The position numbers and the translations under genes are program-made. Below are positions 1-26,137 of a stretch of 34,938 nt of DNA, one piece after another. Under the pieces are notes generated by a model. It was given only the letters and a program-made list of their open reading frames with translations. It made no database searches and had not been told where the DNA came from. This DNA comes from an uncultured Mycoplasmatota bacterium (GTDB lineage Bacteria > Bacillota_I > Bacilli_A > RF39 > UBA660). How positions within the stretch are numbered: position 1 is the stretch's first letter; every line of letters starts with the position of its first letter. Location of the stretch: NCBI GenBank assembly GCA_946530475.1, contig CAMNAC010000005.1, positions 1 to 34,938 on the forward strand, in the 5' to 3' direction.

Positions 1-623
1 CGATTAAAAATGGAGAATTTAAAATTGTAACAACGGGTGATCCAAATTCTGATTCCGCAAAAGGATTGAAAGCAGGAACTTCGATCGTAATTGAAAATGG
101 AAGTTATACCATTGATGCAACAGATGATGGAATTCATTCCAATGGAGATATCACTATAAATGGTGGAACAATTACTGTTACAAGTGATGATGATGCAGTT
201 CATGCAGATGGAAAAGTGGAAGTAAATGGTGGTACATTTACCCTTGATGCTCATGAAGGACTAGAAGCAACCTATGTTAAAATTACTGATGGGACTGTAA
301 ATATTGATGCAACAGATGATGGAATCAATGCAGGAAATAAATCAAATCAATATGAGACAACAATTGAAATAACTGGAGGTTCTATTAGCATTAATATGGC
401 TAGTGGTGATACAGATGGAATTGATTCCAATGGGAATTTATATATTACTGGAGGAACGATTAATATCAATGCACAATCACCATTTGATTATGATGGAGAA
501 GGAAAATTTACCGGTGGAACTTTAATTGTCAATGGACAAGAAGTGACCAGTCTTACCAATCAAATGATGGGAGGCGGAATGCCAGGAGGCATGAATGGTA
601 TGCCAGGTGGTTTTCGAAGATAG
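1..623 (+). CDS. Carbohydrate-binding beta-helix protein (Cthe_2159-like), 5' end missing
   Basis: The reading frame is already open at the left edge (codons begin at base 3), so only the C-terminal part, about 206 residues, is present. It is made of short repeats of the type GGT-[IVFL]-x-[IV], with alternating D/N-rich turns such as DATDDGI and SDDDAVHADG. This is the pattern of a right-handed parallel beta-helix. The C-terminus is a low-complexity Met/Gly tail (MMGGGMPGGMNGMPGG), which I know from the Cthe_2159-type carbohydrate-binding family of Firmicutes (DUF4353). Members are usually secreted or surface-attached and bind acidic polysaccharide; that role is inferred from the family. The signal peptide would lie outside the window. 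An internal TTG at 66 is not a credible start because the repeats continue upstream of it. An intrinsic terminator follows directly. Confidence 0.75.
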   Translation, partial: IKNGEFKIVTTGDPNSDSAKGLKAGTSIVIENGSYTIDATDDGIHSNGDITINGGTITVTSDDDAVHADGKVEVNGGTFTLDAHEGLEATYVKITDGTVNIDATDDGINAGNKSNQYETTIEITGGSISINMASGDTDGIDSNGNLYITGGTININAQSPFDYDGEGKFTGGTLIVNGQEVTSLTNQMMGGGMPGGMNGMPGGFRR

Positions 624-8159: not shown

Positions 8160-8390
8160 ATGAAAGCAGAAGAAAAGATTATAGAAATCATTGATAAACT
8201 AAAACCGTTTTTAATAAATGATGGTGGAAATGTGGAATTTGTAAAATATGAAGACCATAAAGTATATATTAAAATGATGGGAGCTTGTGCGAATTGTTAT
8301 ATGCTTGATCTTACTTTAAAAGATGGGATAGAAGCAGCTATTCAAGAAGAAGTTCCTGAAGTAGAAGAAGTGATCAATCTTTTGGACTAA
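8160..8390 (+). CDS. NifU C-terminal-domain Fe-S scaffold protein
   Basis: A 76-residue protein with the NifU-type C-terminal fold: FLINDGGNVEFV near the N-terminus and the cluster-binding pair GACANC (C43, C46). Proteins of this length (YutI/Nfu type) carry a 4Fe-4S cluster between subunits and pass it to target enzymes; here possible clients in the window are ferredoxin, RlmD and MutY. Starts at 8151 (GTG) and 8154 (ATG) are also in frame, but AGGTGAT at 8149-8155 is positioned for 8160 and overlaps the others. The stop overlaps the end of the convergent neighbour by 17 bases. Confidence 0.92.
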   Translation: MKAEEKIIEIIDKLKPFLINDGGNVEFVKYEDHKVYIKMMGACANCYMLDLTLKDGIEAAIQEEVPEVEEVINLLD

Positions 8391-9285
8391 GCCAAGAGAT
8401 TGTTGGAATAGAAACTTTACTTTTGATAAAAAGGTAAAGTTTTTTTAATAGGATTTCATATTCTTTGTTTTTATTAATTATAAATTGAATAGAATGTTCT
8501 TCTTTTCCATCTAACAATATCTCTTCAAATAAATCAAAGTAATAGGTAGGAAACAGCATTCGGATAAAAAATAAAATCCATTCTTCTTTTGTTAAAGTAG
8601 TATAAGATAAATAAAGGATGATCTCATCTAAAACAAATGGATTTGTATAAAACTTTGATTTAAAATATTCCGCTACTTCTCTAACTCTTGTATCAAAAAT
8701 AAAATTTAAAGGATTATAATAATCAGTAATAGTATCGTAATAGTGAATTCTTCTCCTAGAAAGGGTGATTGGATATTTATTAAAAGCTACTTGATTTAAC
8801 AAAGAAATTGCATTTTCTGCAAGTCCTACATAATAAGGAAAACTTTCAAAAATGAGGGGATACTTTTTACCAAATTGACTCCATTGATATTCAAAATAGT
8901 CTATTTTTTCGCACCACATTTCATACCAGTGATTTCTACTTAGTTCTTCAATCGGATAGAGAAATCTAGATTGGATGGAATAGGAAGATATAAGGGATAG
9001 ACTAATAAGCTCTTTGCTTGTAGTAGAAAGTTTTAGTAAGAGGTAGGGTGTTTCATGGATGACAGTAATAAACTCATTTTTTATATTTGGTATAATTTCA
9101 TGACACTTACAACGTCTTTTTTTTAATTCTTGTATTACGGTATTGATTAATTGAATGTATGATTCAGAAAAGAATGTTGGAATTAAGCAATAATTTTGCG
9201 TGTTGCTTTGAAAGTGATATTGATTCTTTTTTTGTACAAAATGTGTGCATTCTATTCGATAGTAAAATAAAATCGCATTGATCAT
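8374..9285 (-). CDS. Conserved protein, possibly related to CotS/YutH-type spore-coat proteins
   Basis: A 303-residue soluble protein with no signal peptide. I cannot name it with confidence. The segment SRRRIHYYDTITDYYNPL followed by FDTRVREVAEYFK (about residues 176-212) resembles the region of the CotS/YutH kinase-like spore-coat family where the catalytic loop sits, with the catalytic residues apparently replaced. A Trp/Tyr-rich helix (NHWYEMWCEKIDYFEYQW) precedes it. The -10 region CATAAAAT (9309-9302, minus strand) matches the mother-cell SigE -10 consensus CATACAHT at seven of eight bases, and the gene has GGGTGAT upstream of ATG 9285. These two hints point to sporulation but neither is proof. 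It is convergent with the NifU-like gene. Confidence 0.4.
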   Translation of the reverse strand: MINAILFYYRIECTHFVQKKNQYHFQSNTQNYCLIPTFFSESYIQLINTVIQELKKRRCKCHEIIPNIKNEFITVIHETPYLLLKLSTTSKELISLSLISSYSIQSRFLYPIEELSRNHWYEMWCEKIDYFEYQWSQFGKKYPLIFESFPYYVGLAENAISLLNQVAFNKYPITLSRRRIHYYDTITDYYNPLNFIFDTRVREVAEYFKSKFYTNPFVLDEIILYLSYTTLTKEEWILFFIRMLFPTYYFDLFEEILLDGKEEHSIQFIINKNKEYEILLKKLYLFIKSKVSIPTISWLSPKD

Positions 9286-11125: not shown

Positions 11126-12514
11126 ATGAAAGTAATAGACGTGAAAGATATTTATGAACAAATTGATGAATTAATGGAAAAGGAAGTCATGGTTCAAGGT
11201 TGGATAAGAAATCATAGGAAACAAAAAGAATTTGGATTTATTGACTTTAATGATGGAACCTCTTTTCAAACCATTCAAATTGTATATGATAATAAGGTAA
11301 AAAACTTTGATGAAATCCAAAAAATAAGAGTAGGTTCTTCTATTGAAGTAAAAGGAAAAGTAGTACAATCACCTGCAAAAGGACAAGCGTTTGAAATTCA
11401 ATTAAAGTCTTTGAAATTATTAGGAGATAGTCCAGAAGATTACCCTATTCAACCAAAAAGACACACAAGAGAATTCTTAAGAGAACTTGCTTATTTAAGA
11501 CCAAGAACCAATTTGTTTGGAGCAGTATTTCGTGTAAGAAGTGTAACCGCTATGGCAATCCATGAATATTTTCAGTCACATAATTATGTCTATGTACATA
11601 CGCCACTTATCACAACAGCAGATTGTGAAGGCTCTGATCAGATGTTTAAAATTACCACTTTAGATATGAATCATTTACCAAAGTGTGAGGATGGAACTGT
11701 TGACATGAGCAAAGATTTATTTGGAAAACTAGCATTTGTGACAGGAACTGGACAATTACATGGAGAAGCTTTCGCACTAGCGTATAAGAAAATTTATACC
11801 TTTGGGCCAACTTTCCGAACTGAAAACTCGAATACAAAAACACATGCGAATGAATTCTGGATGATTGAACCAGAAATCGCTTTTTGCGATTTAGAAGGTT
11901 TGATGGATATTGAAGAAGAAATGTTAAAATATGTGGTTAATTATGTATTGGAAAAATGTCCAAATGAAATTAATTTCTTTGATTCATTTGTAGAAAAAGG
12001 ATTGAAAGAAAAACTTACAAAATTAGTAAAATCAAAGTTTACTAGAATTTCACATCATGACGTGGTAGATATCTTAAATAAATCTGGAAACAAATGGGAA
12101 TTTACTCCAACTTATGAAGATGATATTGCGAAAGAACACGAAAAATACATTACTGAGTATTTTAATGGTCCTGTGTTTATTACCAACTGGCCAAAAGATA
12201 TTAAAGCTTGGTATATGAAAACAAATGAAGATGGAAAAACAGTTGCTGCAGTAGATCTTGAAGTACCAGGTGCAGGAGAATTAATGGGAGGTAGTCAAAG
12301 AGAAGAAGACTATGACAAATTAATTGCTCGTATGAAGGAAATGAATGTAGATGAATCTACGGTTGATTGGTTCTGTAATTTAAGAAAATATGGTGGATGT
12401 TATCATTCTGGTTTCGGTATGGGATTTGAAAGATTATTAATTTATTTGACTGGAGTTGAGAATATCAGAGATGTTATTCCATTTCCAAGAACACCAGGGA
12501 ACTGTGATTATTAA
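11126..12514 (+). CDS. asnS: Asparaginyl-tRNA synthetase
   Basis: A 462-residue class IIb synthetase that attaches Asn to tRNA-Asn. Residues 1-110 form the OB-fold anticodon-binding domain (VQGWIRNHRKQKEFGFIDF). The catalytic core has GSDQMFKITT, motif 2 TFRTENSNT with HANEFWMIEPE, and motif 3 GFGMGFERLLIYLTG. The full length is intact. The start at 11126 follows AAGGA; a TTG at 11105 lies in the leader terminator's U-run and is not used. It is controlled by the T-box leader directly upstream and ends at an intrinsic terminator. Confidence 0.97.
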   Translation: MKVIDVKDIYEQIDELMEKEVMVQGWIRNHRKQKEFGFIDFNDGTSFQTIQIVYDNKVKNFDEIQKIRVGSSIEVKGKVVQSPAKGQAFEIQLKSLKLLGDSPEDYPIQPKRHTREFLRELAYLRPRTNLFGAVFRVRSVTAMAIHEYFQSHNYVYVHTPLITTADCEGSDQMFKITTLDMNHLPKCEDGTVDMSKDLFGKLAFVTGTGQLHGEAFALAYKKIYTFGPTFRTENSNTKTHANEFWMIEPEIAFCDLEGLMDIEEEMLKYVVNYVLEKCPNEINFFDSFVEKGLKEKLTKLVKSKFTRISHHDVVDILNKSGNKWEFTPTYEDDIAKEHEKYITEYFNGPVFITNWPKDIKAWYMKTNEDGKTVAAVDLEVPGAGELMGGSQREEDYDKLIARMKEMNVDESTVDWFCNLRKYGGCYHSGFGMGFERLLIYLTGVENIRDVIPFPRTPGNCDY

Positions 12515-12538
12515 AAAGGAATTAGTTCCTTTTTTTTT
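12513..12538 (+). terminator. Terminator of asnS
   Basis: Stem AAAAAGGAA/TTCCTTTTT (12513-12521 with 12526-12534), loop TTAG, then T. The stop codon overlaps the stem. Confidence 0.8.
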
Positions 12539-12567
12539 GTATAGTTTGATAGAAACAATCCATATTA
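12539..12567 (+). promoter_or_regulatory. Possible forespore (SigG-like) promoter of the lipoprotein gene
   Basis: GTATA (12539-12543), 17 bases, CATATTA (12561-12567). This fits the B. subtilis SigG pattern GHATR / CATXHTA with a spacer one base shorter than usual. The same CATATTA precedes the GerA-family gene. A SigA reading (TATTAT or TATAAA) has no good -35. Confidence 0.45.
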
Positions 12568-12581
12568 TAAATGGTGATACT

Positions 12582-13124
12582 ATGAAAAAAATAATTTGGA
12601 TTTCATGTTTTCTTCTTTTATTAACAGGATGTGATTTTGGAAAAGAAATGGTAAACACTCCAACAAAACAGGTAGAACTTTTTTTAATGAAATATCAGAT
12701 GGTAGATGAAGATATCATGAAGGATTTAAATTATGTTGTTGCAGAAGAAGAATTATTTAATACAAAGCAAAGAGAGGCTTATAAAGAAATTATGAAAAAC
12801 CATTTTAAAAATTTATCCTATGAAATCAAAGATGAAAGAATTGATAAAGATCAAGCAGTTGTAACTGCAGAAGTAAAAGTAAACAACCATGCAAGTGTAT
12901 TAGAACAAGCAGAAAAGTATTCTCAAAAAAACGAATCTGAATTCTATGATGAGAATGGAGAGTTTTCGCTTTCCAAATATACAGACTATCGATTAGAAAA
13001 ACTAAAACAATCAAAAGAAAGAGTTACTTATACTATTGATTTCACGTTAACAAAAGATGGAAAAGAATGGAAATTAGATCCTTTATCTTCTGAAAACCAG
13101 AAAAAAATAAATGGTATTTATTAA
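12582..13124 (+). CDS. Lipoprotein of unknown function
   Basis: A 180-residue exported lipoprotein: basic N-terminus, hydrophobic core and lipobox LLTGC (Cys at about 17). The mature part begins with NTPTKQVELFLMKYQ, followed by alternating helix and strand segments (SYEIKDERIDKDQAVVTAEV) that resemble an NTF2/DUF4878-type fold; I recognise the general type but not a function. The start is ATG 12582 with GGTGATAC upstream, the same ribosome-binding sequence as the GerA-family gene. A longer frame opening at 12456 lies inside asnS and is not used. The possible SigG-like promoter suggests forespore expression, which is inference. Confidence 0.75.
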   Translation: MKKIIWISCFLLLLTGCDFGKEMVNTPTKQVELFLMKYQMVDEDIMKDLNYVVAEEELFNTKQREAYKEIMKNHFKNLSYEIKDERIDKDQAVVTAEVKVNNHASVLEQAEKYSQKNESEFYDENGEFSLSKYTDYRLEKLKQSKERVTYTIDFTLTKDGKEWKLDPLSSENQKKINGIY

Positions 13125-13149
13125 AACTTTACTTAGTAAAGTTTTTTTT
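13123..13149 (+). terminator. Terminator of the lipoprotein gene
   Basis: Stem AAAACTTTAC/GTAAAGTTTT (13123-13132 with 13136-13145), loop TTA, T-run to 13149. Confidence 0.9.
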
Positions 13150-13150
13150 A

Positions 13151-13204: not shown

Positions 13205-13438
13205 ATGAATTTAAGCGAATTAGAAATTGGAGAAAAAGGAATTATTTCAAAGATAGAATTAGAAGGAATGATGAAAAGAAGAATACTAGATTTGGGTTTT
13301 ATAAAAGGGACAAAAGTAGAGTGTGTGTTAAAAAGCCCATTAAAAGATCTTAAAGCTTATTTGATAAGAGGAAGTGTTTTTGCATTGAGGAAAGAAGAGG
13401 CTGAAAAAATAGAGATTCGAGTGAATCATTATGCATAA
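13205..13438 (+). CDS. feoA: Ferrous iron transport protein A
   Basis: A 77-residue SH3-like FeoA protein: LSELEIGEKGIISKI, then RRILDLGFIKGTKVECVLKS and the C-terminal strand GSVFALRKEEAEKIEI. FeoA is cytosolic and supports FeoB-dependent Fe2+ uptake. A strong AAGGAGG precedes the ATG. The last eight bases overlap the start of feoB, so translation is coupled. No feoC is present. Confidence 0.93.
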   Translation: MNLSELEIGEKGIISKIELEGMMKRRILDLGFIKGTKVECVLKSPLKDLKAYLIRGSVFALRKEEAEKIEIRVNHYA

Positions 13439-15470
13439 ATACAAGATTGCATTAGCAGGAAATCCAAATGTAGGAAAAAGTACTGTTTTTAATGCTTTAA
13501 CAGGACTTCATCAGCATACAGGAAATTGGCCAGGAAAGACAGTGGAAAATGCAGTGGGAAGTTTTTTTTATCATGATAATGAATATACAATTTATGATTT
13601 ACCGGGAACCTATTCCTTACTATCTCATTCAGAAGAAGAGGAAATTGCTAGAAATTTTCTTTGCTTTGAAAAACCAGAATTGGTAATTGTCGTATGTGAT
13701 GCAACTTCCTTAGAAAGGAATCTTTCTTTTGTATTACAAGTAAAAGAAATTCATTCCAATGTTCTTGTTTGTGTCAATTTATTAGATGAAGCAAAAAAGA
13801 AAAAAATTGAAATCAATCTTTCTAAATTGTCCGAATTATTAAATACTCCAGTTGTTGGTATTTCTGCAAGAAAAAAAGAAGGATTTGATGAATTATTAAA
13901 TACCATTGAATCATTATGTTTGACACCAAATGAAGAGTATTTCGAATTGTCCTATGGAAAAGAAATTGAATATGCAGTTTCCATTATCGAAAATGAGTGG
14001 AATCAATATTATGATAAATATAAAAGGTCTCATTATTTTTGTCTTCAATTATTAGATGATACAGAATTAAAACATACTATATATGAAAAATATCCAATAC
14101 CTAATATCGAAAAAGCTGTTCAAAAAGCGAAAGGATATCTTTTTTTAAAAAAAATAGATTGGAAAGAAATCATAGCAGAGCAATTCATAAAAAATTCAGA
14201 AATGATTTCAAAAGAAGTAATTACTTATAAAAAAGGTAATATATTTGAAAAAGAAAAAAAGCTTGATCAAATTCTAACAAGCAAAAAATATGGATTTCCT
14301 ATCATGATTTTATTATTAATTTTAATTTTTTGGATTACGATAGAATTCGCAAATATACCATCTAATCTTTTATTCTCTTTTTTTCAAATACTAGGAGAAT
14401 ATCTTTCAAAAAGTCTTTCCTTTTTACCAAGATGGCTTCATGAGTTACTTTTTTCAGGAATTTATAAAACTTTAACATGGGTTGTATCTGTTATGTTACC
14501 ACCTATGGCTATTTTTTTCCCTCTTTTTACATTATTAGAAGATTTTGGATATTTACCAAGAATTGCATTTAACTTAGATTATTATTTTCAAAAATGTAAG
14601 GCTTGTGGAAAACAGGCACTGACTATGTGTATGGGATTTGGATGTAATGCAGTAGGGGTAACAGGAGCAAGAATAATTGATTCAAAAAGGGAACGACTTA
14701 TGGCAATCATTACCAATGTGTTTGTACCTTGTAATGGAAGATTTCCAACAATTGTTGCTTTGATTACGATGTTTTTTGTGGGATTTTCAAATGATTTTTT
14801 CTCTTCCATTTATAGTACATTTTTACTTTGCATTGTGATCTTACTTGGTGTTTTTTTGACTTTTTTCATATCTTTTATTTTGTCAAAAACAGTTTTAAAA
14901 GGAATTCCATCTTCTTTTACGTTAGAACTTCCTCATTACCGAAGTCCACAATATAAAAAAGTATTGATTCGTTCTATTCTGGACCGCACTTTATTTGTAC
15001 TTGGAAGAGCAGTTGTTGTTGCGATACCAGCGGGTCTTATTATTTGGCTATTTGCTAATTTCAAAATAGGTAATAATAGCCTACTAATTCATGTTTCCAA
15101 TTTTATAGATCCTTTTGGGAAATTAATAGGACTAGATGGAATTATACTCCTATCTTTCCTTTTGGGATTCCCGGCTAATGAAATTGTTTTTCCGATTATG
15201 ATTATGGCTTATATGCAAACAGGATCGATTGCAGAGTTTTCTGATTTGAGTATGTTGAAAGAACTTCTCATAAAGAATGGATGGACTTCTATAACTGCAG
15301 TTTGTACGATTTTGTTTTGTTTGGTTCATTTTCCTTGTTCTACTACATTACTTACTATTAAAAAGGAGACTGGAAGTTTTAAATGGACGATGCTTAGTTT
15401 TTTGATACCAACGTTATGTGGAGTTCTTTTATGTTTCATAACATCTTCTTTCTTAAGACTTTTTTCATAG
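13431..15470 (+). CDS. feoB: Ferrous iron transporter B
   Basis: A 679-residue Fe2+ permease with an N-terminal G domain. Motifs: G1 GNPNVGKST (10-18), switch region HTGNWPGKTVE, G3 DLPGTYS, G4 NLLD, G5 SARKKEG. A helical insert follows, then a membrane domain with the conserved Cys-containing gate segments GFGCNAVGVTGARI and NVFVPCNGRFP, and a late helix LLGFPANEIVFPIMI. Length and motif order are those of an intact family member. It moves Fe2+ into the cell across the cytoplasmic membrane. The start lies within the end of feoA. No clear terminator is visible after it. Confidence 0.97.
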   Translation: MHKYKIALAGNPNVGKSTVFNALTGLHQHTGNWPGKTVENAVGSFFYHDNEYTIYDLPGTYSLLSHSEEEEIARNFLCFEKPELVIVVCDATSLERNLSFVLQVKEIHSNVLVCVNLLDEAKKKKIEINLSKLSELLNTPVVGISARKKEGFDELLNTIESLCLTPNEEYFELSYGKEIEYAVSIIENEWNQYYDKYKRSHYFCLQLLDDTELKHTIYEKYPIPNIEKAVQKAKGYLFLKKIDWKEIIAEQFIKNSEMISKEVITYKKGNIFEKEKKLDQILTSKKYGFPIMILLLILIFWITIEFANIPSNLLFSFFQILGEYLSKSLSFLPRWLHELLFSGIYKTLTWVVSVMLPPMAIFFPLFTLLEDFGYLPRIAFNLDYYFQKCKACGKQALTMCMGFGCNAVGVTGARIIDSKRERLMAIITNVFVPCNGRFPTIVALITMFFVGFSNDFFSSIYSTFLLCIVILLGVFLTFFISFILSKTVLKGIPSSFTLELPHYRSPQYKKVLIRSILDRTLFVLGRAVVVAIPAGLIIWLFANFKIGNNSLLIHVSNFIDPFGKLIGLDGIILLSFLLGFPANEIVFPIMIMAYMQTGSIAEFSDLSMLKELLIKNGWTSITAVCTILFCLVHFPCSTTLLTIKKETGSFKWTMLSFLIPTLCGVLLCFITSSFLRLFS

Positions 15471-15521
15471 ACATTCTTTCGAAAATTTGGTATCCTTAAT
15501 ATAGAACAAGGATGTGAGATT

Positions 15522-16571
15522 ATGGATTCAACTGCATTATCAAATACTTGTCCTGCTTGTGGAGCAAAGATTACATTTAATCCAAAACTTCAAAAGTGGG
15601 ATTGTGAATTCTGTGGATCTAAATTTACATTGGAAGAGATGCAGAAGGCGAAGAATGCTTCAAGCAAAGAAGCCAATATTAAAACATTACCTAAAAGTAA
15701 CAAAAAAATAGATGCTTTTCGATGTGAAAACTGTGGAGCAGAAATTGTCGCAGATGAAAATACAGTAGCGACATTTTGTGTTTATTGTGGAAGTACCGCA
15801 ATCTTAAAAGCAAAAATAGATGAAGGGGTTTCTCCTACATTAATTATTCCGTTCAAAAAAGTGAAAGAAGATGCAGTAGAAGCATTCAAAAAAGTCGTTA
15901 TGAAGCCACTTACTCCAAGAGCATTTAAGAGTTCTGAAAACATTGAAAAAATTACAGGAGTTTATATTCCATTTTGGGCCCATGATATTGTAGGAGATGG
16001 AAAAATGGATTTTTCCGCAAAGGATATTAGAACGTGGTATTCAGGAGATTATATGAATACGGAAACAAGAATTTATAATGTGACAGTAGAAGGACATTAT
16101 GAATTTGATAAAGTATTATCAGACGCATCTTCAAGATTTGATGATGATTTAATGGATTCTTTAGAACCTTTTGATTTTAATGATTTAGTAGATTATAATC
16201 ACGCATACTTATCTGGATTCTTTGCAGAAAAATATGATGTAGAACAAGAAAAAGGTTATGAAAGAGCAAGACAAAGAGTAGTGAATAGCTCCATAGATTT
16301 AGCAAAATCGAAAGTCGGACATCAAACGAGTACTGTTTCTAATAATTCAGTAAGTTTAAAAAATGAAAATTGTTACTGCATTATGTTACCAGTGTGGATG
16401 GTGAATATTACATACAAAGGAAAAATGCATACATTTGCGATGAATGGAGACACTGGAAAAATTGTTGGAAATATTCCAATTGGTGTTAAAGAAACAGTTT
16501 TATGGAGTATTGGTTTATTTATTCTATTTTTTGCGCTTTGTTTTGCGATAGTATATTTTGGAGGGATTTAA
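15522..16571 (+). CDS. YdjG-like zinc-ribbon membrane protein
   Basis: A 349-residue protein with two N-terminal zinc ribbons: CPAC/CEFC (C10, C13, C28, C31) and CENC/CVYC (C68, C71, C86, C89). A long conserved middle domain (FKSSENIEKITGVYIPFW and relatives) follows, then one C-terminal hydrophobic helix (about 326-347), so it is tail-anchored with the zinc ribbons probably cytosolic. The TFIIB-type ribbon, TPM-domain and SPFH-domain order of this and the next two genes matches B. subtilis ydjG-ydjH-ydjI. There those genes sit behind the pspA-like ydjF under SigW control. ATG 15522 has GGATGTGAG upstream. The stop shares one base with the next start (TAATG). Confidence 0.8.
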   Translation: MDSTALSNTCPACGAKITFNPKLQKWDCEFCGSKFTLEEMQKAKNASSKEANIKTLPKSNKKIDAFRCENCGAEIVADENTVATFCVYCGSTAILKAKIDEGVSPTLIIPFKKVKEDAVEAFKKVVMKPLTPRAFKSSENIEKITGVYIPFWAHDIVGDGKMDFSAKDIRTWYSGDYMNTETRIYNVTVEGHYEFDKVLSDASSRFDDDLMDSLEPFDFNDLVDYNHAYLSGFFAEKYDVEQEKGYERARQRVVNSSIDLAKSKVGHQTSTVSNNSVSLKNENCYCIMLPVWMVNITYKGKMHTFAMNGDTGKIVGNIPIGVKETVLWSIGLFILFFALCFAIVYFGGI

Positions 16572-17485
16572 TGAAAAAGATTGTTACAGGAATCGTAGTA
16601 TTTTTCATAGGAATACTTCCAATATTTGCTTCTACCAATACCTATGAAAGAACGGAAGAAGATTATAGAGTTCCAAATGATGTTATTGTTACAGAGGAAA
16701 GAATTCCTTATATTATGACAACTCCATCTGTAAATGCTGAAGAAAAAATTTACGATTTTGCAGATTTATTTACTGATGAAGAAGAAAGAGCACTATATCA
16801 AGAAATGCAATCATTTATTTCAAAGGATCAAACAGACCTTGTCTTAGTAACCATTAATGAAAATCCTAAATATAAAGAACTTAGAATCTATGATAAAGAT
16901 CAAGCGGATATGGTTTATGCAGATGATTTTTATGATTACAATGATTTCGGATATGCAAATACAAGAGATGGTTTACTGATTTTAATTGATATGGATAATC
17001 GATATGTATATATATCTGGTAGTGGAGAATCAAGATTTATTTTTACAGATGAGAAAATTCCACATATTACAGATAGTATTTCTTCTTATCTAAGTTCAAA
17101 ATCTTATAAAAATGGAATTAGTAAAATGATTGTAACATTAGATGAATATTATCACTTAGGTACAAAAAGTGATAGAGGATATCGAATTGATAAGAATGGA
17201 AAATTAGTTCGTGATTATCATTTTCTAATCCTTTCCTTTATTTCTTTTGTATGTACTTCTGTTGTGATGCTAATTCTATACTTTAAAAATAAAATGGTTA
17301 GAAAAGCAACTTCAGGAAGAAATTATTTGAATGAAGAGAAAACAAATTTGACAAAAACAAAAGATCAATTTGTAAATGTTTTTGTAACCAGAACCAGAGT
17401 TCATAGTGATTCTTCTTCCGGTGGCGGAGGAGGCCACAGCGGTAGTAGTGGATTTAGTCACAGTGGAGGTGGAAGTCATTTCTAA
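16571..17485 (+). CDS. YdjH-like TPM-domain membrane protein
   Basis: A 304-residue protein: signal peptide (1 to about 20, ending PIFA), a TPM/DUF1517-type domain (IYDFADLFTDEEERALYQEM to about residue 195, with GLLILIDMDNRYVYISGSG), a membrane helix at about 219-240, then a cytosolic tail ending in Gly/Ser/His repeats (SGGGGGHSGSSGFSHSGGG). That tail is typical of TPM proteins of this group. GGAGGGA lies in the end of the preceding gene and ATG 16571 overlaps its stop, so the two are translationally coupled. The TPM domain faces outward by topology. Function is membrane-stress related by analogy with ydjH. Confidence 0.85.
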   Translation: MKKIVTGIVVFFIGILPIFASTNTYERTEEDYRVPNDVIVTEERIPYIMTTPSVNAEEKIYDFADLFTDEEERALYQEMQSFISKDQTDLVLVTINENPKYKELRIYDKDQADMVYADDFYDYNDFGYANTRDGLLILIDMDNRYVYISGSGESRFIFTDEKIPHITDSISSYLSSKSYKNGISKMIVTLDEYYHLGTKSDRGYRIDKNGKLVRDYHFLILSFISFVCTSVVMLILYFKNKMVRKATSGRNYLNEEKTNLTKTKDQFVNVFVTRTRVHSDSSSGGGGGHSGSSGFSHSGGGSHF

Positions 17486-17491
17486 TTATTC

Positions 17492-17520
17492 TTGAAAAAG
17501 AATTTAAAATGTGAGATAAT
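17492..17520 (+). promoter_or_regulatory. Promoter of the ydjI-like gene
   Basis: TTGAAA (17492-17497), 17 bases, GATAAT (17515-17520). The leader of about 45 bases contains a small hairpin AGGGA/TCCCT (17533-17550). The SPFH gene can therefore be expressed separately from the two genes before it. Confidence 0.65.
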
Positions 17521-17571
17521 AAAAGCGTAATAAGGGATGATTAAGTCCCTAGAAAGAAAAGAGGTAGAAAT

Positions 17572-18720
17572 ATGGGTTTAATTAGAGCCGCAGTAGGTGC
17601 TGTTGGAAGCACATTACATGATCAATGGAAAGATTTTATCCGTTGTGAAGATTTAGGTCAAGACATTTTAATGAAGAAAGTAACGACATCAAATGGAATT
17701 ATTTCGAAGGATAGTGCAATTATTGTTGCACCTGGACAAATTGCAGTCATCTATGATAGTGGAAAAATATTAGATGCAACTGCAGAAGATGGAACATATA
17801 CTTTTGATGCATCTTCATCTCCAACTTTCTTTGCTGGACAATTTGGACCAGTGTTTAAAGAAATGTGGAATCGTTTTGTATACAATGGAAAACCTGCAAA
17901 AGAACAAGCAGTATTCTATTTGAATGCAAAAGAAATCATGGATAACAAATTTGGAACACCTGCACCAATTCCTTTTCAAGATTGGTCACATCCAATTCCA
18001 AATCAAATGACAAATTCTATTACACCACTTAGTGTAAATGTTAAATGTTTTGGAAAGTATACATTTAAAATTGCAGATCCATCATTATTCATGAGCCAAG
18101 TAGCAGGAACTGCTGATGAATTCCGTAAAGATAGTTTAGTAGAACAAATGAGAAGTGAAGTTATTGGAGCATTCCAAAATGTATGTAATGCATTAGGAAA
18201 TTCCCAAAACAAAGTTCCAGTATTAGAACTTCCAAGTAATACAGGAAAAATCAAACAACTTATGGATGAACAAGTATTTGATCAACCTATTCGTAATAGG
18301 GGATTAAACATTGTAGGATTCGTTGTAGAATCTGTTACTCTTGATGATGAATCACAATCTAAAATTGATAACTATGAACTTTCTTCAAACAGCTTTATGC
18401 AAAAAGGTACTCTTACAGGAGCTTATGCAAATGCTGTTCAAGATGCTGCCAAAAATGCAAATGGAGCTGCAAATGGATTCATGGGTATTGGTATGATGAA
18501 CATGGCATCTGGAGGAATGGTTGGAGGTGCTGTTACTGGACCTCAAAATCTAGAAGGAGCAACTACAACATTAGATCCATATGCACAAAATGTACAACCA
18601 CAACAAGTAGCAGTAGCGCAAGCACCTGCAGGAGAAGCAACCGCTTTCTGCCCACAATGTGGAAAACCTGTTGGAGCAACTAATTTCTGCGGAAACTGTG
18701 GAGCAAAATTAGGAGAATAA
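17572..18720 (+). CDS. YdjI-like SPFH-domain protein with C-terminal zinc ribbon
   Basis: A 382-residue protein. Residues about 20-240 form an SPFH/band-7-like domain (DSAIIVAPGQIAVIYDSGKI; the relatives are annotated as virion core protein-like or YdjI). A Gly/Ala/Met-rich linker follows (GFMGIGMMNMASGGMVGGA), then a C-terminal zinc ribbon FCPQCGKP with FCGNCGAKLG. There is no transmembrane helix, so it is probably a peripheral membrane scaffold that assembles with the YdjG/YdjH-like proteins upstream. AGAGGTAG precedes the ATG. A terminator follows immediately. Unlike in B. subtilis, no pspA-like gene adjoins the set. Confidence 0.85.
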   Translation: MGLIRAAVGAVGSTLHDQWKDFIRCEDLGQDILMKKVTTSNGIISKDSAIIVAPGQIAVIYDSGKILDATAEDGTYTFDASSSPTFFAGQFGPVFKEMWNRFVYNGKPAKEQAVFYLNAKEIMDNKFGTPAPIPFQDWSHPIPNQMTNSITPLSVNVKCFGKYTFKIADPSLFMSQVAGTADEFRKDSLVEQMRSEVIGAFQNVCNALGNSQNKVPVLELPSNTGKIKQLMDEQVFDQPIRNRGLNIVGFVVESVTLDDESQSKIDNYELSSNSFMQKGTLTGAYANAVQDAAKNANGAANGFMGIGMMNMASGGMVGGAVTGPQNLEGATTTLDPYAQNVQPQQVAVAQAPAGEATAFCPQCGKPVGATNFCGNCGAKLGE

Positions 18721-18830: not shown

Positions 18831-19919
18831 ATGAAAAGAATATGGATAATTATAATGGTTATACTATTGTTACCATTTCCTGTAAAAGCATTCTCTTCTT
18901 CTGCAACTTCCACTGTTTTAATGGACATGGATAGTCATCGAGTACTCTATTCAAATAATCGAAATCAAGTAAGAAGTGTCGCTTCCATTTCTAAAATAAT
19001 GACCGCAATTCTTGCAGTAGAAAGTGGGAAACTAGAAGAGGAAGTTGAAATAGGGGAGGAAATTCTAAAAGCGTATGGGTCTGCTATTTATATCAAAGTA
19101 GGAGAACATATGAAATTAAAAGATCTTGTGTATGGGCTTATGCTTAGAAGTGGAAATGATGCGGCTCTTGCAATTGCGAATTATGTTGGAGGAAGCGTAG
19201 AAAGATTTGTTCTCATGATGAATGAAAAAGCAAAAGAGATAGGAATGTCCAATACAACTTTCCATAATCCAAGTGGATTGGATGAAACAGACAAGGGAAA
19301 TCTGTCTACAGCTTATGACATGGCTCTTTTAACTTCTTATGCAATGAAAAATGCGGAATATAAAGAAATTGTAAAAACAAAAAAACATAGTGTAAAAACA
19401 GATTGTAACTATTATATTTGGCACAATAAAAATAAAATGTTATCGATATATCCATATTCTACTGGTGGTAAAACAGGATATACAGAAATCGCCAAAAGAA
19501 CTCTTGTCAGTACAGCCTCTAAAAACGGTTTAAATCTAGTTGCTGTGACATTAAATGATGGAAATGATTGGAATGATCATAAAAACCTTATGGAAGAAGC
19601 TTATGAAACTTATACTAATTATCCGATTTTAAAAAAGGGAGAAATTATAATTGATGAAGAAACTCATTATCTAAATGAAACACTATATATTAAGAATGAT
19701 GTTACTTATCCAATCAAAGAAACGGAAAAAAATATGATTTCTATCAAATATGAATTAGAAAAGAAAAAAGACTATAATAACCATGATTCTATTGGGAAAG
19801 TAATGATTTATTTCGGCGATGAACTGATAAAAGAAGAGCCAGTTTATATTCAAAAAGCGAAAGAAAAGAAGGAACCTTTTCTAAAAAAGTTAAAGAAATG
19901 GTTTGATTCCTTATGGTAA
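18831..19919 (+). CDS. dacB: D-alanyl-D-alanine carboxypeptidase, DacB-like
   Basis: A 362-residue penicillin-binding protein 5-type DD-carboxypeptidase. Signal peptide 1-20 (ending PVKA). Active-site motifs: SISK (S52, K55), SGN (S107-N109) and KTG (214-216). The C-terminal part matches the PBP5 beta domain and ends in a basic amphipathic stretch that may hold the protein to the membrane. It removes the terminal D-Ala of peptidoglycan stem peptides. The order carboxypeptidase-spmA-spmB-rluB is that of the B. subtilis dacB locus, where DacB lowers cross-linking of the spore cortex, so I call it DacB rather than DacA or DacF. The start has AGGTGA nine bases upstream. Confidence 0.88.
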   Translation: MKRIWIIIMVILLLPFPVKAFSSSATSTVLMDMDSHRVLYSNNRNQVRSVASISKIMTAILAVESGKLEEEVEIGEEILKAYGSAIYIKVGEHMKLKDLVYGLMLRSGNDAALAIANYVGGSVERFVLMMNEKAKEIGMSNTTFHNPSGLDETDKGNLSTAYDMALLTSYAMKNAEYKEIVKTKKHSVKTDCNYYIWHNKNKMLSIYPYSTGGKTGYTEIAKRTLVSTASKNGLNLVAVTLNDGNDWNDHKNLMEEAYETYTNYPILKKGEIIIDEETHYLNETLYIKNDVTYPIKETEKNMISIKYELEKKKDYNNHDSIGKVMIYFGDELIKEEPVYIQKAKEKKEPFLKKLKKWFDSLW

Positions 19920-20503
19920 ATATGATATGGGGATGTTTTATTATAATTGGAATTCTTTCCTTTTTTATACAAGGTGATTTTTCTTTATTAAATGAAACAA
20001 TATTAAAAAGTACCAAAAATGCATTTGATTTGACCATTCAATTATTTCCAATGATGGCATTATGGTTGGGTATCATGAAAATTGCATCTTCCTCTGGATT
20101 GCTTCAAAAATTAAGTCATTTATTGTATCCATTATTATCGAAACTATTTCCAGAAATCCCTAAAAATGATGAATCTTTTTCCTTTATTGCTTCTAATATC
20201 ATTGCAAATTTATTTGGATTAGGGAATGCAGCAACACCATTTGGGCTTAAAGCAATGAAGTCTTTGCAAACGATCAATAAAAAGAAAGATACCGCTTCTA
20301 GAAGCATGATTACTTTTTTAGCGATTAATACAAGTGGTTTAACGATGATACCCACTACAATCATTTCCATGCGTCTTATGTATGGGAGCAAACATCCTAC
20401 TGAGATTGTATTTGCTTGTATTTTCGCGACAGCTTGCTCTACTATAGCTGCTCTATTATTAGATCGATATTATGCAAAAAAGGAGGAAAAAAAGTGCAGA
20501 TAA
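19913..20503 (+). CDS. spmA: Spore maturation protein A
   Basis: A 196-residue integral membrane protein of the nucleoside-recognition (Gate) family. Hydrophobic helices include GCFIIIGILSFFIQ near the N-terminus and TMIPTTIISMRLMYG later. The motif NLFGLGNAATPFGLKAMK (about residues 99-116) is characteristic of SpmA. In B. subtilis SpmA and SpmB are needed for normal spore-core dehydration. The first ATG (19913) overlaps the dacB stop by seven bases; ATG 19922 is an alternative start. Neither has a clear ribosome-binding site, so translation is probably coupled to dacB. Confidence 0.92.
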   Translation: MVNMIWGCFIIIGILSFFIQGDFSLLNETILKSTKNAFDLTIQLFPMMALWLGIMKIASSSGLLQKLSHLLYPLLSKLFPEIPKNDESFSFIASNIIANLFGLGNAATPFGLKAMKSLQTINKKKDTASRSMITFLAINTSGLTMIPTTIISMRLMYGSKHPTEIVFACIFATACSTIAALLLDRYYAKKEEKKCR

Positions 20504-21000
20504 TATCCAGTTTTCTACTTCCTTTTTTGATTTTAGTCGTTATTTTTTATGGAATTATAAAAAAAGTTCCGATTTATGATGTTTTTATAGAAGGAGCAAA
20601 AGAATCCTATGAAATGATTCTAAGTTTATTTCCTTGTATGCTAGGAATGACTTTAGGAGTAAATTTATTGCTAAAAGGAAATTTGATTTCTTTTTTGTTA
20701 TCTTATCTTTCTTTTCTTCCGATTCCAAAAGAAGTCATTCCAATGACATTACTACGTTCTATTTCAGGAAGTACAACACTTGCATTTATGAATCACCTTT
20801 TTGAATTATATGGACCAGATAGTTTAATTGGAAGACTTGCATCTGTAATTCAAGGATCGACAGATACTACTATTTATATTTTAACTTTGTATTTTGGAAG
20901 TATTGGAATAAAGAAAACAAAGTATGCACTTAAAGTAGGACTTTTTGCAGATTTGATTGGAATCATCGCAAGTGTTATTGCAGTAGAGTTGTTTTTTTAA
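20494..21000 (+). CDS. spmB: Spore maturation protein B
   Basis: A 168-residue membrane protein of the same Gate family as SpmA. It carries KVPIYDVFIEGAKESYEM near the N-terminus and LLRSISGSTTLAFM later, with PDSLIGRLASVIQGSTDTT, the SpmB signature region. The start is GTG 20494, placed eight bases after AAGGAGG (20480-20486); the upstream extension in the same frame overlaps spmA without support. It overlaps the spmA stop by ten bases. It acts with SpmA in spore maturation. Confidence 0.92.
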   Translation: MQIISSFLLPFLILVVIFYGIIKKVPIYDVFIEGAKESYEMILSLFPCMLGMTLGVNLLLKGNLISFLLSYLSFLPIPKEVIPMTLLRSISGSTTLAFMNHLFELYGPDSLIGRLASVIQGSTDTTIYILTLYFGSIGIKKTKYALKVGLFADLIGIIASVIAVELFF

Positions 21001-24656: not shown

Positions 24657-24682
24657 AGATAATATTATCTTTATTTTTTTTT
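24651..24682. terminator. Terminator between the tail-anchored gene and gerA
   Basis: A perfect 26-base palindrome (24651-24676; arms of 13, AAATAAAGATAAT and its complement) followed by T. The plus-strand stop codon lies inside. On the minus strand the U-run is shorter, so termination of gerA here is less certain. Confidence 0.7.
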
Positions 24683-26092
24683 GATTTTATCTTTTGGCTT
24701 TAGGTAACCAGGCCTATTTGTATCATTTTTTTTTGAAACTCTTATCCATAATTTCTTTACTTCTTCTTTTTGAAAAGGATATATTGGACTCAAGTATGGA
24801 ATATCTAAAGATTTCAAATGCATTAAGTGAAATAATAAAACAATAAATATTACAAAGACACCTATTAAACCTTGACAAGCTGCTCCTACTAAAAAAAGAT
24901 ATCTCCAAATACGAAGCGCATATACAAAATCGATATCAGAGAATAACAAGCCACTGATAGCGGTGATGGCAGTTATAATGACTGCAATACTGGAAACAAG
25001 CCCTGCGGATACTGCGGCATCCCCTAATACAAGCGCTCCTACCACTCCAATAGATGTCCCCATTTTATTTGGAATTCGAATATCGCTTTCTCTTAAAATT
25101 TCAAAAACGGTTACTAGCAAAAAGATTTCTAAAAATGCTGAAACAAAGAGTCCTTCTCTTTGAACAGTGAGTGTTTCATAGATGCTTTTTGATATGAGAT
25201 TTTTATTAAAGGTAATAATCGATACATAAATTGCAGGAGTTAAAAGTGTGATGAAAAAACAAAGAATTCTAAGAACTCTTGTAAAAGAACTATTAATAGG
25301 GCTCAAGTATTCATCTTCTGTATTATGAAGATAGTCAATAAAAAGCCCTGGAATAATAAGTGCAATTGGAGAATTGTCAACTAAAATTATAAACTTACCT
25401 TCTAACAAAGCCATTGATACTAAATCAGGCCTTTCTGTACTTAAGATAGTGGGGAAAGCTGTTTTCCAAGTACTTAAGAATTCTTTTATAGTACTACTAT
25501 CTAATATCGAATCAATATCAATATTATTCAGTTTTTTTTCAATTTGCTTTCTTTTTTTTTCATCAATTAAGTCTTTTAAATAAGAAAGTATTACTTTTGT
25601 CTTGGTTCTTCTTCCAATCACAAATTCTTGAAAACTAAGATTGGTATCTTTAATTCTTTTTCGAATGAGTCCCATATTCAGCAGAATATTTTCAGTAAAA
25701 CTATCTTTTGGACCACGTAATACTACTTCATTGTTGGAACTTTCAATTCCTCTATTTAAAGAGTTTTTTGTTTCAATTCCAATCGCATTTTGTTCTCCTT
25801 CTATAAAAATAATCGTGAATCCATTTTGTAGATAAAAAATGATTTCTTTCATGTCAGAAATTGTTTTTAATTTGTTGTTTGGAATGGTATTTTTTAAAGA
25901 AGAGAAGAGATTTGAATAATCAAATTTTGTGATTTCTTTCATAAAAAAATCACTTATTTTATCATCACTACATAGACTTTCTAATAATACATAGGATATT
26001 TTCTTTTGAATGGTTCGAACATAAAAATCACTAGAACATTGAAACACTTTTTTTAAAGTTTGAATGTTTTCTTCTAAATTTTTAGAAATCAT
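24671..26092 (-). CDS. GerA-family spore germination protein
   Basis: A 473-residue protein of the GerA/SpoVAF family (A subunit of germinant receptors). The N-terminal cytosolic domain contains SSNNEVVLRGPKDSFTENI and the region KVILSYLKDLID. The membrane domain has about five helices, beginning SSFTRVLRILCFFITLLTPA and including IPNKMGTSIGVVGALVLGD. In spores these proteins sit in the inner membrane and, with B and C subunits, sense nutrients and open ion channels. No gerB or gerC gene adjoins, so it may be a SpoVAF-like or orphan subunit. GGGTGATAC precedes the ATG, and the CATATTA element upstream suggests forespore transcription. It is convergent with the tail-anchored protein gene. Confidence 0.9.
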   Translation of the reverse strand: MISKNLEENIQTLKKVFQCSSDFYVRTIQKKISYVLLESLCSDDKISDFFMKEITKFDYSNLFSSLKNTIPNNKLKTISDMKEIIFYLQNGFTIIFIEGEQNAIGIETKNSLNRGIESSNNEVVLRGPKDSFTENILLNMGLIRKRIKDTNLSFQEFVIGRRTKTKVILSYLKDLIDEKKRKQIEKKLNNIDIDSILDSSTIKEFLSTWKTAFPTILSTERPDLVSMALLEGKFIILVDNSPIALIIPGLFIDYLHNTEDEYLSPINSSFTRVLRILCFFITLLTPAIYVSIITFNKNLISKSIYETLTVQREGLFVSAFLEIFLLVTVFEILRESDIRIPNKMGTSIGVVGALVLGDAAVSAGLVSSIAVIITAITAISGLLFSDIDFVYALRIWRYLFLVGAACQGLIGVFVIFIVLLFHLMHLKSLDIPYLSPIYPFQKEEVKKLWIRVSKKNDTNRPGYLKPKDKIKKK

Positions 26093-26108: not shown

Positions 26109-26137
26109 TAATATGGTTTTTCTTTATAAAAATATGA
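26109..26137 (-). promoter_or_regulatory. Possible forespore (SigG-like) promoter of the GerA-family gene
   Basis: Minus strand TCATA (26137-26133), 17 bases, CATATTA (26115-26109). The -10 fits the SigG pattern CATXHTA; the -35 lacks the expected leading G. After six bases GGGTGAT begins. Confidence 0.45.

Follow-up and report, generated by a model that had tools for sequence, protein, structure and literature searches.

A SigG-type promoter marks a probable new spore-formation lipoprotein gene in the bacterial order RF39

The stretch of DNA analyzed here (the window, 34,938 nucleotides) is a contig of a 904-kb genome, 78% complete, from an uncultured Mycoplasmatota gut bacterium of the order RF39, for which we sampled 192 relatives, all of a single family. 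The named orthologous loci come from metagenome genomes labeled 'Mollicutes', 'Tenericutes' or Bacilli, many of them from animal guts, and include Candidatus Coprosoma, a member of the order RF39 (PMC8035907), the link by which the analysis assigns the window to this order. RF39 has been predicted to be a mixture of spore-formers and non-spore-formers, its sporulation, like that of related 'Mollicutes-like' gut Bacilli, being so far predicted from gene lists (PMC10868615). The features of the window considered below are as follows:

12513..12538 (+): intrinsic terminator of asnS, read from the sequence (RNA fold -6.8 kcal/mol, z -1.9)
12538..12543 (+): SigG-type -35 element TGTATA, read from the sequence
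12561..12567 (+): SigG-type -10 element CATATTA after a 17-base spacer (sequence; 16.7 bits with the spoVAC model)
12573..12578 (+): ribosome-binding site GGTGAT, of ordinary type
12582..13124 (+): lipoprotein gene, 180 aa, with lipobox LTGC (C17) and an NTF2-like domain (sequence; AlphaFold2 model)
13123..13150 (+): intrinsic terminator after the lipoprotein gene (RNA fold -6.9 kcal/mol, z -3.5, then a T-run)
13205..18720 (+): feoA, feoB, zinc-ribbon, TPM-domain and SPFH genes, between the lipoprotein gene and dacB (Pfam)
18831..19919 (+): dacB-like D-Ala-D-Ala carboxypeptidase gene, cortex peptidoglycan (Peptidase_S11, E 2.8e-64; PBP5_C)
19913..20503 (+): gene for a spmA-like Gate-domain protein (PF07670, E 1.4e-12)
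20416..21000 (+): gene for a spmB-like protein, assigned by gene order
24671..26092 (-): gerA, GerA-A germinant receptor subunit (PF03323, E 4.4e-142)
26109..26137 (-): SigG-like gerA promoter TCATA-17-CATATTA, read from the sequence (only 5.0 bits)

The product of the gene at 12582 has the LTGC lipobox of a lipoprotein, its Cys17 being invariant in 65 sequences, and LPAM_1 matches 33 of the 65 orthologues. No Pfam or NCBIfam family matches the window protein, DUF5105 included; 7/65 orthologues touch the DUF5105 model (best E 3.3e-6) and 16/65 the NTF2-like SnoaL_2 model. An AlphaFold2 model from the 65 sequences (pLDDT 90.2) predicts an alpha+beta, NTF2-like fold, for which Foldseek ranks YcdA of B. 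subtilis, also a lipoprotein, first among solved structures (4r4g; E 2.6e-4, TM-score 0.40), with penicillin-binding proteins and NTF2-like folds as weaker matches below it; a sequence search of the PDB returned nothing real. The NTPTKxVE segment is conserved at nearly 100%, in part artificially, since it served as the search pattern for the collection. Some orthologues (L239, L241, L244, L249, L251 and L252) carry an additional tail of 30–60 residues in which D, N and T abound. Close family members turned up here in RF39 alone. More distant relatives, at the level of the class, exist in other Bacilli (f6, f11, f13 and f19); they have neither the promoter nor dacB neighbors, and we therefore group them with the rest of a wide superfamily of lipoproteins. 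We found no description of the gene in any SigG regulon.

The dacB-spmA-spmB-rluB cluster of the window lies 5.7 kb downstream of the lipoprotein gene, past feoAB and the TPM/SPFH genes. Across 80 loci, a dacB-like gene is found downstream on the same strand in 46, within 500 bp in 33, and is usually followed by spmA and spmB. At seven of them (L197, L199, L208, L209, L219, L231 and L243), asnS, the lipoprotein gene and dacB lie within 70 bp of each other and the feo/TPM/SPFH block does not intervene, so this block is probably a later insertion. We considered a lipoprotein-dacB operon and doubt it: a terminator and a SigE-like -10 (CATAnnnTT-like) upstream of dacB often separate the two genes, which are thus probably distinct transcription units active in different cells. 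As dacB is under SigE (mother-cell) control in B. subtilis, adjacency is no proof of joint function. Judged from its sequence, the lipoprotein gene of the window is a monocistronic unit with its own terminator. The spmB-like gene, found in the dacB-spmA-spmB-rluB order, has no Pfam match, which may explain the reduced or missing spmB reported for RF39 (PMC10868615).

The first-pass annotation had noticed GTATA-17-CATATTA upstream of the lipoprotein gene, and the elements read as claimed (12539-12543 and 12561-12567, plus strand), 14 bases ahead of the start codon (ATG at 12582), the T-run of the asnS terminator directly adjoining the -35 element. The companion promoter proposed for gerA is also in place, with TCATA (26137-26133), 17 bases and CATATTA (26115-26109) on the minus strand, 16 bases before the ATG at 26092, but taken individually it is a poor match, reaching 5.0 bits under the spoVAC model owing to the missing G in its -35. 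The GerA group nevertheless shares the same -10, 18 of 30 members scoring above 99% of shuffles. The identity of GGTGATACTATG at both gene starts is real; as a sign of shared regulation it was dropped, since the window contains 13 instances of GGTGA with an ATG close behind and GGTGATACTATG is an ordinary Shine-Dalgarno region. Leaders are very short (upstream regions L197-L276 and L167-L196), the -10 mostly ending 14–19 bases before the start codon, so that the transcription start would fall right at the ribosome-binding site or ahead of it.

The window gerA is apparently a GerA-A orphan, the next gene being on the opposite strand. In relatives gerAC lies ~100 bp downstream of gerA, and no GerAC was found in this genome, which is 78% complete. 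The window also encodes a homologue of the YutH-like spore coat kinase (8374-9285, minus strand; TIGR02905, E 1.2e-17, below the curated cut-off).

Promoter classes were compared using upstream regions from the same order: spoVAC, SASP and gerA for SigG, spoIIR for SigF and spoIVA for SigE, the sigma factor of each being established in B. subtilis. Two-block EM models were used, and the spoVAC model never saw lipoprotein sequences; the EM models for SASP and for a mixed set of sigma genes converged on the Shine-Dalgarno region and were left unused. We obtained GTATA-17-CATAATA for spoVAC, tGAATA-18-CAtTAT for spoIIR and CATAnnnTT for spoIVA, and read GTATn-17-CAnnCTA for SASP by eye and pattern (24 sequences at spacer 17). 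The 80 lipoprotein orthologues yield a model of their own, tGTATA-17-CAnAATA, in which GTATA is conserved at 88–99% and the terminal A of the -10 at 99%, with a spacer of 17 bases in 60 sequences and 18 in 8. With the spoVAC model, the window promoter scores 16.7 bits, 99% of shuffles staying below 7.9, and 64/80 orthologues exceed 8 bits vs 2/231 other genes at the same loci, one of the two being spmB-like. The lipoprotein promoter has the -35 GHATR, the spacer of about 17–18 bases and the -10 CATnnTA with a conserved downstream A of SigG promoters; in C. difficile, this final A tells SigG from SigF promoters (PMC3789822). The SigE-type -10 CATAnnnTT, as at spoIVA, was not found at the lipoprotein orthologues, and none of the 80 exceeds 8 bits with the spoIVA model. 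What had been proposed as a SigG/SigF class is narrowed by these sequence comparisons to SigG, the architecture being like that of spoVAC and SASP and unlike that of spoIIR (SigF) and spoIVA (SigE).

At most RF39 SASP genes (L073-L100), another conserved element, AAATTACCA, precedes the -35 by ~20 bases; it is absent at the lipoprotein gene and is possibly the site of a SpoVT- or RsfA-like regulator. The RF39 SigF-type promoters (spoIIR, L133-L162) read TGAATA-18-CAnTAT and are without GGNNANANT, the -10 of B. subtilis SigF-type promoters. These models give the order RF39 a promoter grammar for SigF, SigE and SigG that can be tested.

The genome encodes homologues of sigF, sigE, sigG and sigK. 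The sigG gene (L318) has the SigG model NF006071 as its best match, with E values of 2e-108 and 4e-104 for the SigG models, ahead of 2.5e-80 for SigF, at scores below the curated cut-offs, as in every genome of the sample. Lipoprotein orthologues are present in 159/193 genomes of the order sample, namely 159/183 with sporulation sigma factors vs 0/10 without (Fisher p 8e-9), the latter being genomes with one or no match to the spore-sigma model; judged by its score, such a single match is probably the general sigma factor. Counted by genus, the gene is absent from 5/5 all-negative genera and present in 71/79 others (p 4.2e-5), both p-values being optimistic because related genomes are not independent. 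One genus alone, g22, shows the contrast of presence and absence internally, and some genomes lacking both the spore sigma factors and the lipoprotein are as large as 1.4 Mb. As 24 of the 183 sigma-positive genomes are without the gene, it is not essential in all of them. The two findings that the first-pass annotation named as refuting its reading, a genome devoid of sigG/sigF and a lipoprotein common in non-sporulating relatives, were both looked for, and the data contradict both.

The late-forespore promoter type and the absence from all ten sampled relatives without sporulation sigma factors lead us to read the lipoprotein as a spore protein, as the first-pass annotation had suggested it could be, and the previously unannotated gene as a very probable new spore-formation gene of the RF39 lineage. 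On this evidence, together with the gene neighborhood and the predicted fold, we consider it likely that the gene encodes a SigG-controlled lipoprotein of the inner forespore membrane that helps to build or condition the cortex or germ-cell wall. RNA polymerase with SigG would transcribe the gene in the forespore after engulfment, starting from TGTATA-17-CATATTA and yielding a monocistronic RNA whose leader is very short. The protein would cross the inner forespore membrane, receive a lipid at Cys17 and stay anchored to the outer face of that membrane, in the intermembrane space in which germ-cell wall and cortex form. We infer a structural role in this assembly, the NTF2-like domain being a putative binding or scaffold module rather than an enzyme; the most likely partner would be the DacB/SpmA/SpmB cortex system, encoded adjacently in many relatives. 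Tentatively, RF39 bacteria may have co-opted an NTF2-like lipoprotein to serve in the forespore as a factor for cortex or germ-wall assembly that is specific to this lineage. Neither B. subtilis nor C. difficile would have an equivalent of this spore-envelope component, which would act from the forespore side by binding DacB/SpmAB or precursors of peptidoglycan; we hold this somewhat less probable than its opposite. Since no Pfam or NCBIfam family covers the protein, standard family lists are blind to this probable spore gene, which could mark those RF39 genomes that make spores.

The main rival keeps SigG control and the inner-membrane site and assigns the lipoprotein to germination, where it would assist the germinant receptor in the manner of GerD or GerAC. 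GerD and GerAC are SigG lipoproteins that act in germination, and gerA has the same promoter -10. The conserved neighbors are however dacB-spmA-spmB and no ger genes, and the NTF2-like fold differs from the helical fold reported for GerD. GerAC moreover forms a separate family in 46/60 genomes and is common in those carrying the lipoprotein, which rules out the lipoprotein as its replacement. We judge a germination role rather unlikely, and a cortex or germ-wall role the better reading.

Control by SigF, or by SigF and SigG jointly, with expression beginning before engulfment is complete, appears improbable. The SigF and SigG motifs do overlap and 19/80 orthologues score above 8 bits with the model trained on spoIIR, but this model fits poorly (2/80 above 12 bits), the orthologues do not have the SigF-type combination of an 18-base spacing with CAtTAT, and their 17-base spacer, near-invariant downstream A and agreement with the spoVAC model point to SigG. 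An ordinary SigA promoter driving a vegetative lipoprotein is more improbable still: CATAAT is one base from TATAAT and thus resembles a SigA -10, and other Bacilli have weak relatives of the protein family that lack the promoter, yet GTATA is conserved where SigA needs TTGACA, -10 variants such as CACAATA and CAAACTA break the SigA hexamer, and the sampled genomes without spore sigma factors are without the gene. A chance motif devoid of regulatory meaning, suggested by its frequency in this genome being no higher than in the reversed control (2 matches vs 2 for RTATA-16..18-CATATTA, 4 vs 3 for TRTATR-16/17-CAYANTA), is refuted by the orthologue comparison, the promoter keeping its position in dozens of orthologues only 40–50% identical in protein, and deserves practically no credence.

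Among known systems, lipoproteins of the YcdA/DUF5105 type share the succession of a lipobox and an NTF2-like domain; the deposited YcdA chain has 322 aa vs 180 aa here, the TM-score is only 0.40, and none of the titles and abstracts found presents YcdA as a spore gene. GerD, of about the same size as the 180-aa lipoprotein, and GerAC are likewise forespore (SigG) lipoproteins expected on the inner spore membrane. They differ in having no sequence match to the lipoprotein, whose neighborhood is cortex-related and in whose order GerAC exists separately; no GerD family was among the Pfam/NCBIfam matches, and the lipoprotein model is alpha+beta. The conserved neighbors are those of the dacB-spmA-spmB cortex operon, on one strand and in the B. 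subtilis order, dacB-spmA-spmB-rluB, with rluB after spmB. No such lipoprotein is known to head the B. subtilis operon, whose dacB is SigE-controlled, and in RF39 a terminator usually sets the lipoprotein gene apart. In promoter design, the gene resembles those of the SigG regulon (spoVA, ssp, gerA), with which it shares the GTATA/GHATR -35, the 17-base spacer, the CATnnTA/CATAATA -10 with its conserved final A and the short leader.
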